DNA of 11,043 nucleotides from Alphaproteobacteria bacterium (lineage in GTDB: Bacteria > Pseudomonadota > Alphaproteobacteria > Rhizobiales > Rhizobiaceae). Under the pieces are notes generated by a model, which was not told the DNA's origin, ran no database searches, and saw nothing but the letters and a program-made list of their open reading frames with translations. Both the position numbers and the translations under genes were made by a program. The stretch spans positions 9,640 through 20,682 of the forward strand of contig JAFKFE010000195.1 of assembly GCA_017308345.1 (NCBI GenBank), given 5' to 3'. Of this stretch, positions 7,745 to 8,672 are shown piece by piece (positions within the stretch are counted from its first letter, which is position 1; every line of letters starts with the position of its first letter).

Positions 7745-7824
7745 GCGGGGATCTGCCGCTACCGAGCCGCAGGCTCAGATTCAGACCCCGGAGTCAACCA
7801 GTCCTCACAACCCATTGAACCAAT

Positions 7825-7880
7825 TGGCGATCCCGGCAGGATTCGAACCTGCGACCATCGGCTTAGAAGGCCGGTGCTCT
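7825..7880 (-). repeat. 56-bp direct repeat, left copy (tRNA-Arg 3' portion)
   Basis: Identical at all 56 positions to 8596-8651. It covers the 3' part of tRNA-Arg from the end of the D stem through the anticodon arm, variable loop, T arm and acceptor strand to CCA. This is the expected form of an att duplication made by a tyrosine recombinase, but no recombinase is present here. Confidence 0.95.
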
Positions 7881-7897
7881 CCCGCCGAGACGGGACC
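7825..7897 (-). pseudogene. tRNA-Arg(UCU)-like copy with altered D arm
   Basis: Read on the minus strand, the 56-bp repeat is preceded by GGTCCCG, so the full acceptor stem is also kept. In between, the D-arm region is 4 nt shorter than in the intact gene, the usual U8-A9 linker is lost, and only about three D-stem pairs remain. The total is 73 nt instead of 77. The anticodon TCT, the T arm and encoded CCA are intact. It is probably not a working tRNA, but it is more complete than a normal att-site remnant. Confidence 0.65.
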
Positions 7898-7913
7898 TGT
7901 TGGCAGAACGTTG

Positions 7914-8205
7914 TTAAGCCGCGTGCAAGGTCGGTATAGCGCTCACATCCACTTCCCGCTCGGCGTGCCACGCGTCATAGGCCGCCTGCATTCGAAGCCA
8001 GATTGCAGCGCCGTCGCCGAGCCGCAGCGGCCGGCGAAACCGGCTTCCGTTCGCGAGTGATATCGTAGAGCTGCTGTCGCGAGATTCCGAGCAACCGGGC
8101 AATTTCCACCTTGGTCTTTCCGGTCGCCGGGATGATGTCCTCAAGCAGCGCTCCCGGGTGGGACGGGCAACGTTCAATCGGACGCTTCGGCTTGTGCTCG
8201 CTCAT
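7914..8205 (-). pseudogene. higA: HigA-type antitoxin, apparently frameshifted
   Basis: The start at ATG 8205 has GGGGAAG 8 nt upstream and begins 27 nt after the toxin stop. The first frame encodes a typical HigA N-terminus (CPSHPGALLEDI, about residues 13-24) and an Xre-type helix-turn-helix at 30-49 (VEIARLLGISRQQLYDI). After VSPAAAA it runs into RRRRCNLASN and stops at 7975, giving 76 aa. The expected family ending (LGDGAAIWLRMQAAYDAW and so on, to TLHAA) is encoded in the next frame, down to a TAA at 7914. Family members of about 100 aa usually have a further 5-6 residues at the joint, so a deletion of about 17 nt near 8012-8026 is likely. The DNA-binding part could still be made; the C-terminal helices that help form the dimer are lost. 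Confidence 0.75.
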
Positions 8206-8232
8206 CAACCAAACTTCCCCAGTCTGTCCGCC

Positions 8233-8511
8233 TCAATGATACTGCTCGAAATCGACGCGGGCGGCGTCTTCGCCGTCGAATTCAAATGTGATGCACCACG
8301 GGCCGTTCACGTGAACCGTATAGCGGGTCGGATCGAAGCCTCTCAGCGCGTGAAAATCAAACCCTGGCAGGTTCATATCTTCCGGCCGCTCGGAAGCCTC
8401 AAGACGGTCAAGCCTGACCAGGATGCGCTTATGCATCTTAACATCAATCTTCCCGGTTTTCCCGGTCTCGAACAAATCGGCCAGCGCTTTGCTCTTGAAT
8501 GACTTGATCAT
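8233..8511 (-). CDS. higB: HigB/RelE-family type II toxin
   Basis: This 92-aa protein matches the HigB branch of RelE/ParE toxins, ribosome-dependent mRNA endonucleases kept in check by the antitoxin. Family blocks are MIKSF at the start, LDRLEASERPEDMNLPG (34-50), FHALRG (53-58), and the end WCITFEFDGEDA then FEQYH. The usual WR at the last block reads WC (72-73); as the Arg is widely conserved, activity may be reduced, though some relatives may share the Cys. The toxin-before-antitoxin order is characteristic of HigBA. The ribosome site (TGAGG) is only 1 nt from the ATG, so translation is probably weak. The open frame is full length. Confidence 0.85.
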   Translation of the reverse strand: MIKSFKSKALADLFETGKTGKIDVKMHKRILVRLDRLEASERPEDMNLPGFDFHALRGFDPTRYTVHVNGPWCITFEFDGEDAARVDFEQYH

Positions 8512-8517
8512 GCCTCA

Positions 8518-8568
8518 CGTAAGCAGATAGCGTACATAAGTCAAGCTCTCGTAAGCAAAAAGCTTACG
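8518..8568 (-). promoter_or_regulatory. higB promoter with repeated 7-bp operator motif
   Basis: CGTAAGC occurs at 8518-8524 and 8550-8556, with its inverse GCTTACG at 8562-8568. The last two make a perfect 7-bp inverted repeat around five A bases, and the two direct copies are 32 bp (about three helical turns) apart. A TATGTA (minus strand, 8533-8538) with TTTTTG 17 nt upstream (8556-8561) is the best promoter and lies between the copies. The layout fits autorepression by an Xre-type antitoxin. Promoter choice is inference; the repeats are seen directly. Confidence 0.6.
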
Positions 8569-8595
8569 TTTGCGATCAACAGGAATGTCAAAGAA

Positions 8596-8651
8596 TGGCG
8601 ATCCCGGCAGGATTCGAACCTGCGACCATCGGCTTAGAAGGCCGGTGCTCT
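8596..8651 (-). repeat. 56-bp direct repeat, right copy (inside tRNA-Arg)
   Basis: The 3' 56 nt of intact tRNA-Arg, identical to 7825-7880. The two copies are in the same orientation with a period of 771 bp. Confidence 0.95.
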
Positions 8652-8672
8652 ATCCAGCTGAGCTACGGGACC
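8596..8672 (-). tRNA. tRNA-Arg(UCU)
   Basis: A 77-nt cloverleaf with CCA encoded. The acceptor GGTCCCG pairs with CGGGATC (one G-U), the D stem is GCTC/GAGC, the anticodon stem CCGGC with GCCGA encloses CTTCTAA giving anticodon TCT, and the T arm GCAGG-TTCGAAT-CCTGC is perfect. It reads AGA codons. It lies 56 bp after the stop of the complex I subunit gene on the same strand and may be co-transcribed, as no strong promoter is seen between. Its 3' end is the boundary of the candidate insertion. Confidence 0.97.

Follow-up and report, generated by a model that had tools for sequence, protein, structure and literature searches.

Architecture of the tRNA-Arg locus

The window, i.e., the whole stretch of 11,043 nucleotides analysed here, derives from a bin in many pieces (1307 contigs, 5.4 Mb, completeness 80%) of a Mesorhizobium-type soil bacterium, which is numbered G000 in the genome comparisons below. 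Its reverse strand holds an intact tRNA-Arg(UCU) gene, a toxin-antitoxin (TA) locus of the HigBA type and a damaged second copy of the same tRNA gene, with the following features.

8596..8672, minus strand: intact tRNA-Arg(UCU) gene (ARAGORN; Rfam RF00005, 68.6 bits), the same gene that adjoins NDUFS4 in relatives
8550..8568, minus strand: palindrome of 19 bp, putative HigA-type operator box 1, located at -57 to -59 in each of 11 loci
8518..8536, minus strand: palindrome of 19 bp, putative HigA-type operator box 2, located at -25 or -26 in each of 11 loci
8233..8511, minus strand: higB toxin gene, 92 aa, frame intact (PF05015, 49.5 bits, cut-off 27; PDB relatives include 4mct and 4px8)
8017..8205, minus strand: first part of higA, corresponding to residues 1-63 of G023 HigA (tblastn; TIGR02607, 30.5 bits)
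7914..8021, minus strand: last part of higA, shifted to a different frame by a 17-bp deletion near 8020 (TIGR02607, 21.2 bits)
7825..7897, minus strand: second tRNA-Arg copy with damaged D arm, the distal repeat, matching the intact gene exactly in its last 56 nt
7800..7824, minus strand: native tRNA-Arg trailer, now behind the second copy, assigned by its by-eye likeness to the sequence directly after tRNA-Arg in relatives with one copy of the gene, G004 among them

The intact gene, which adjoins an NDUFS4 gene (PF04800) in the window, is the insertion target and the presumed working copy. An earlier note on this DNA had described a perfect 56-base direct repeat of its end at a distance of 771 bp, and this is confirmed: positions 7825-7880 and 8596-8651 are 100% identical, with a spacing of 771, which is far beyond chance. 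The view that only these last 56 bases had been copied needs correction, however, since the second copy aligns with the whole tRNA model (positions 1-71 of 71, 43.3 bits) and its equivalents are complete in G091 (65.6 bits; 76 of 77 bases equal to the intact tRNA-Arg gene) and in G093 (54.1 bits). In G023, G146 and G008, too, the second copy can be followed as far as the tRNA's first half. The changes in the second copy are unevenly spread: tRNA positions 1-24 have 56 of the 94 changes counted in the ten genomes whose copy could be aligned, whereas 29 are expected there (69 of 138 against 43 when G146 and G136, displayed and uncounted, are included), and positions 25-77, i.e., the last 53 nt, carry no change at all in G000, G126 and G144. 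Between the two copies in the window nothing was found except higBA, which reads in the same direction as the tRNA, and no integrase gene was found beside the tRNA within the window's insert.

A HigBA module with a broken antitoxin gene

As a member of its family, HigB would be an mRNA-cleaving toxin kept in check by HigA, and HigA would repress the operon at two operator boxes. Compared with its counterpart in G023, the window's higA has lost 17 bp (deletion at 8017-8021), so that its frame is broken and both pieces score below the TIGR02607 cut-off of 47.7; no match to the HigA model above the curated cut-off was found in the whole bin. Eight further genomes carry HigBA at the tRNA-Arg site, and in 8 of 8 tblastn matched HigA as one stretch, residues 1-102, a count that sets aside the fragments in G115 and G120. 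Given the broken HigA, the module may have reached its last stage in the window's genome, or the bin may be misassembled. The reverse state is seen in G146 and G106, where HigB is frame-broken and HigA whole.

The paired 19-bp palindromes before HigB were checked in 11 loci, three of which lie outside the tRNA site, and are presumably the HigA operators expected of this family. A scan of the locus for a sigma-70 consensus promoter and for a terminator found neither. Two further statements of the earlier note are retained in part: the HigBA pair does lie between the repeats, with HigB intact but HigA split over two frames, and what had been called the locus's own promoter comprises two operator-like palindromes but no sigma-70 consensus site. 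Among the copies of HigBA compared, dN is smaller than dS for both genes in every one of the 28 pairs, and the ratio does not exceed ~0.22 (HigB, dN 0.005-0.063 and dS 0.19-1.24; HigA, dN 0-0.022 and dS 0.10-0.81), and the best reading of these substitution rates is that HigBA is under purifying selection.

Distribution of filled, eroded and empty sites

Matches to HigB occur in 43 of 146 genomes of the genus. The tRNA-Arg site itself was compared in 62 of 145 NDUFS4 loci, i.e., the 50 most similar in NDUFS4 and 12 from the remaining 95; this set leaves out G013, G014 and G017, and in G019 and G119 the sequence ends 37 and ~100 bases behind the tRNA, respectively. HigBA follows the tRNA-Arg in 9 of the 62 loci (G000, G023, G062, G091, G092, G093, G126, G144 and G146, the last with its frame-broken HigB). 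G019 is probably the tenth (10/62), because its tRNA contig ends 37 bases past the gene while its HigBA starts another contig, where the genes behind it are those that also follow it in the window. Fragments of HigBA are present at the tRNA-Arg of G115, G120 and G155 (3/62), and relics of the tRNA copy occur without HigBA in G136 and G008. In G144 (L128) and G092 (L132), a SUFU-domain gene (PF05076) lies between tRNA-Arg and HigBA in the same order, and G120 (L112) has the SUFU gene and a HigA fragment, again in this order, as the remnant of a longer form; the domain scores 72.3 bits in G144 and was located by tblastn in G092 and G120. A core-genome status of the intervening DNA, which the earlier note had named as the case that would count against it, is rejected by the presence of HigB in 43 of 146 genomes and by the 49 of 62 loci that have neither HigBA nor a fragment (G019 counted as present).

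Sites lacking the unit are found in G004, G043, G131 and other relatives, where the flank matches, by eye, the sequence after the second copy in G091 and G093. A similar trailer lies directly behind the single tRNA-Arg in many genus-mates and behind the second copy in the window, G091 and G093, and in these three the intact tRNA-Arg is followed by other DNA, not by the trailer (both comparisons by eye). With the native trailer behind the second copy and empty sites in relatives, the locus is the product of an insertion or a duplication, and this tRNA gene is a hotspot. The closest relative, G007, is only partly usable as a clean empty site, since an IS-like end adjoins its tRNA, and G004, G043 and G131 are cleaner. 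A shared sequence that we take to be IS-like is seen directly beside tRNA-Arg in L037 (G007), L038 (G015), L042 (G019) and L111 (G077).

The DNA behind tRNA-Arg differs widely among the 51 genomes compared. In G002 (L040/L041), a tyrosine-recombinase gene lies 50 bp from the same tRNA-Arg, and 49 bp of the tRNA end recur ~64 kb away, at the far end of the island; an integrase 72% identical to that of G002 is present at this tRNA-Arg in G109, pieces of one in G006 and a weak match (25%) in G054. The loci were searched for integrases by tblastn using the G002 integrase and by Pfam on selected frames rather than every frame, and within this scope no integrase remnant was found together with whole HigBA at the tRNA-Arg site. 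An integrase-like frame that the tblastn search missed is present in G115, which has only a HigA fragment at the site. In G113 (L099 ~237-1684), an insert of ~1.4 kb at the same tRNA-Arg terminates in 20 bp copied from the tRNA 3' end, and its frames of 179 and 217 aa gave no Pfam match. The earlier note's proposal of an insertion at the tRNA 3' end is supported by the empty sites of G004, G043, G131 and others, for which the note had suggested a comparison of relatives, and by the integrase-bearing island of G002 with the related integrase of G109.

History of the HigBA copies

The copies of HigBA at tRNA-Arg form one clade with support 100/99, amounting to 10 of the 31 rows of the HigBA tree. 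Of the 43 genomes that gave a match, 31 are in this tree; among the other 12, the copies of 10 are fragmentary, frame-broken or distant, whereas G085 and G151, with HigB on another contig than NDUFS4 or ~2.5 Mb away from it, are outside the tree only because the number of loci was capped. Within the clade, a branch with support 99/99 unites G000, G023, G091, G093, G144 and G146, the hosts of which all belong to a single branch of 21 rows (100/98) when the tree is built from the neighbouring ABC-transporter block; G126 and G092 lie outside that branch, and G062 and G019 are absent from the ABC-block tree. As far as these trees go, the two halves of the clade fit host groups. The distances of HigBA and the ABC block are correlated (Mantel r 0.61, p 0.04, 7 genomes), and inside the six genomes the conflict between the two topologies is not significant at 0.05 (AU p 0.127 for HigBA and 0.053 for the block).

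The presence of HigBA or its fragments requires 11 changes on the 42-row ABC-block tree, compared with a mean of 9.9 for shuffled labels, i.e., there is no extra clustering, and an account by descent consequently needs many losses. Filled and empty sites alternate between sister genomes (G000/G007, G023/G101, G146/G147 and G093/G108). The synonymous distance of HigBA between the halves is 0.5-1.1 and exceeds that of the ABC block (~0.3), and within the first half it is likewise larger than that of the block for G023 and G144 (HigB up to 1.24). We read these sequence data as pointing to one old arrival, followed by descent with many losses, with some exchange between species possible.

HigBA at other chromosomal places and beyond the genus

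A second association with tRNA-Arg occurs in G106 (L227 6659-7411) and G071 (L223 9184-9938), where HigBA lies at a different chromosomal place, with an ABC-transporter block on the HigA side. A tRNA-Arg relic is found ~90 bp before HigB, of 52 nt at 92% in G106 and of 35 nt at 91% in G071, and an outer flank of ~4.9 kb is common to G106, G071, G087 and G016; no such relic was found at that place in G087 and G016 at the limit used. The search for a second tRNA copy on the HigA side gave local scores of 13.5 in G071 and 15.5 in G106, compared with shuffle maxima of 20.5 and 19.5, respectively, while the score of 18.0 in G087 equals the best of 100 shuffles and is borderline. Either tRNA-Arg and HigBA may have come together before the tRNA-site clade arose, or the unit may have moved. 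In G016, a tRNA-Arg(CCG) predicted upstream of HigB has no Rfam match at the gathering score and was dismissed as a likely false positive.

A wider survey covered the best 80 of 379 HigB relatives in genome_contigs. Among these, HigBA is bounded by a tRNA and an exact repeat of 18 nt or more in four loci, all from Mesorhizobium (L143-L146), and two further Mesorhizobium loci (L147 and L149) have the tRNA and a decayed copy; no other tRNA gene was found to bound HigBA with a repeat in these best 80 of 379. Exact direct repeats of 20-40 nt surround HigBA in L188, L200 and L210, where no tRNA was found; the sources are two MAGs (Reyranella and Hyphomicrobiales) and a Bartonella plasmid record. 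In L164, L179, L194 and L220, a tRNA lies within ~450 bp behind the estimated end of HigA, with its 3' end toward HigBA and with no exact repeat of at least 18 nt. One of these, L194 3213-4775 from Bradyrhizobium forestalis, has two tRNA-Arg(ACG) genes ~1.4 kb apart behind HigBA. Matches to HigB on plasmids comprise 39 records, 28 of them from Rhizobium, with 37 at 60-80% identity. A phage origin was rejected; the phage matches to HigB are 5 distant ones at 39% identity, all in Mannheimia phages.

Origin of the tRNA-bounded unit

Judged by sequence comparison, the unit is probably an old and shrunken CIME-like relic that has been passed on mostly vertically and often lost, and not a tiny element that jumps today. 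A unit with higBA and a tRNA-Arg copy, probably accompanied by the SUFU-domain gene, would have entered tRNA-Arg(UCU) once in the past of a Mesorhizobium clade, with the outcome tRNA, cargo, tRNA copy and native trailer; the insertion itself is shown by the comparison of sites, whereas a tyrosine recombinase would be its presumed agent. Descent would then have prevailed, while the cargo was reduced to HigBA and the second tRNA copy decayed, most of all in its first 24 nt. In many lineages the unit would have been lost, either cleanly, as by recombination between the tRNA copies, or through IS or newer islands, and HigBA would have been retained through selection. This account is based on the trailer, which is behind the second copy here and directly behind the single tRNA in relatives with empty sites, on the one HigBA clade at the site with halves fitting their hosts, on the combined SUFU and HigBA forms (G144, G092) with the remnant in G120, the fragments in G115, G120 and G155 and the tRNA-copy relics in G136 and G008, and on dN being below dS in all pairs, with HigBA as all that was found between the window's repeats. 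The scar of a collapsed island, one of two alternatives offered by the earlier note, fits better than the other in view of the one clade, the longer SUFU forms, the fragments and the tRNA-copy relics. Several observations speak against the relic account, however: the scattered presence and the synonymous distances of HigBA above those of the ABC block, the second copy that is a whole tRNA gene compared with the 49-bp repeat in G002, so that the usual attP picture is not exact, the lack of an integrase remnant with whole HigBA in the search described above, and the relic beside HigBA in G106 and G071, which needs an extra rearrangement.

Some of these observations would be accommodated by a non-autonomous mini-element whose tRNA copies serve as att sites and whose HigBA unit is moved in trans by the integrase of a resident island, such as those of G002 and G109. 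The alternation of filled and empty sites between sister genomes, the scattered presence on the host tree and the tRNA-Arg relic beside HigBA at the second place would suit such movement, as would the integrases at the same tRNA-Arg in other genomes, the unchanged last 53 nt of the second copy in G000, G126 and G144 with the excess of changes in positions 1-24, and the ~1.4-kb insert of G113, which ends in a tRNA-end copy and gave no Pfam match. Nevertheless, HigBA forms a single clade at a single site with halves that fit host groups, its conflict with the ABC block is not significant, and no repeat-bounded HigB was found at another tRNA gene among the best 80 of 379 relatives. We regard movement in trans as unlikely, and its fullest form, a sub-kilobase mobile unit that has no integrase, takes the whole tRNA gene as att, uses island recombinases and has the TA pair as its sole device of self-preservation, would be a little more doubtful still. 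The little-known class of trans-moved elements that the earlier note had offered as its other alternative is not demonstrated by these loci.

A second copy that began as a full tRNA gene, as it still is in G091 and G093, that is traceable in G023, G146 and G008 and that is unlike the 49-bp repeat of G002 would be expected if tRNA-Arg had been duplicated in tandem first and HigBA, together with SUFU, had then been inserted by ordinary recombination, a site-specific recombinase never having been involved. Such a history appears no likelier than the self-preserving mobile unit just described, as none of the 62 loci has a tandem tRNA-Arg(UCU) free of cargo and as tRNA-Arg genes are among the known ICE and IME sites of the genus in the part of PMC8627217 available to us, where the anticodon is not given. 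An old neighbourhood of HigBA, ABC block and tRNA-Arg, like that in G106 and G071 with the relic ~90 bp before HigB, the ABC block behind HigA and the ~4.9-kb flank shared with G087 and G016, could also have been brought to the NDUFS4-tRNA-Arg by recombination between tRNA-Arg sequences; this rearrangement is very improbable, for it fails to yield a second tRNA copy followed by the native trailer, and no second copy on the HigA side stood out in G071 and G106, G087 being borderline. We prefer the old relic to all of these. The locus offers a comparative series, in which one tRNA-bounded site passes across a genus from a complete double-tRNA form through eroded forms to the empty site, and in which the TA pair is retained more often than any other cargo. 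With this series, it becomes testable in ordinary soil bacteria if a TA module can persist after the island that delivered it has gone, and the locus is also a warning that a sub-kilobase tRNA-bounded unit need not be mobile.

Comparison with known systems

No description of this HigBA-tRNA unit was found among the listed titles and abstract openings of the literature searched. As a type II module, the window's locus agrees with known HigBA systems in having the toxin gene first and the antitoxin gene second, two operator-like palindromes and a HigB that matches PF05015 and is related to 4mct, but it differs in its frame-broken HigA. A TA pair at a tRNA-bounded locus is also known from Shewanella, where, according to the accessible portion of PMC8978831, the HipAB module stabilises an island at tRNA-Trp; that island is a 48-kb composite, whereas nothing but the TA pair is left in the window.

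ICEs and IMEs at tRNA-Arg have been reported in Mesorhizobium in the part of PMC8627217 that we consulted, with a smallest IME of 5,814 bp and tyrosine-recombinase genes in 73 of 79 elements. The HigBA unit shares with them the genus and the tRNA-Arg target, and an island occupies this very tRNA in G002, but it has no tyrosine-recombinase gene and lies below the 5,814 bp given in that part of the paper.

A CIME is defined in the section of PMC5704250 available to us as an element without integration and transfer genes but with attL and attR. The HigBA unit resembles a CIME in its direct repeats at a tRNA 3' end, in that no integrase or transfer gene was found, only HigBA lying between the repeats, and in the use of its site by an integrase-bearing island; it is unlike one in being smaller than 1 kb, in carrying a TA pair only and in a distal copy that was once a whole tRNA gene and not a 3' core. 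For the att sites, there is the 56-bp repeat with the trailer behind the distal copy, yet this copy is a whole tRNA compared with the 49-bp repeat of G002. For descent from an ICE or IME, there are the longer SUFU forms, but no integrase was found with whole HigBA by tblastn with one integrase, a search that missed the G115 frame. Its descent from an ICE or IME being putative and its repeats candidate att sites, we call the unit CIME-like and do not file it as a CIME. Overall, the locus is a real tRNA-bounded TA unit, which works, or worked, like a CIME relic.
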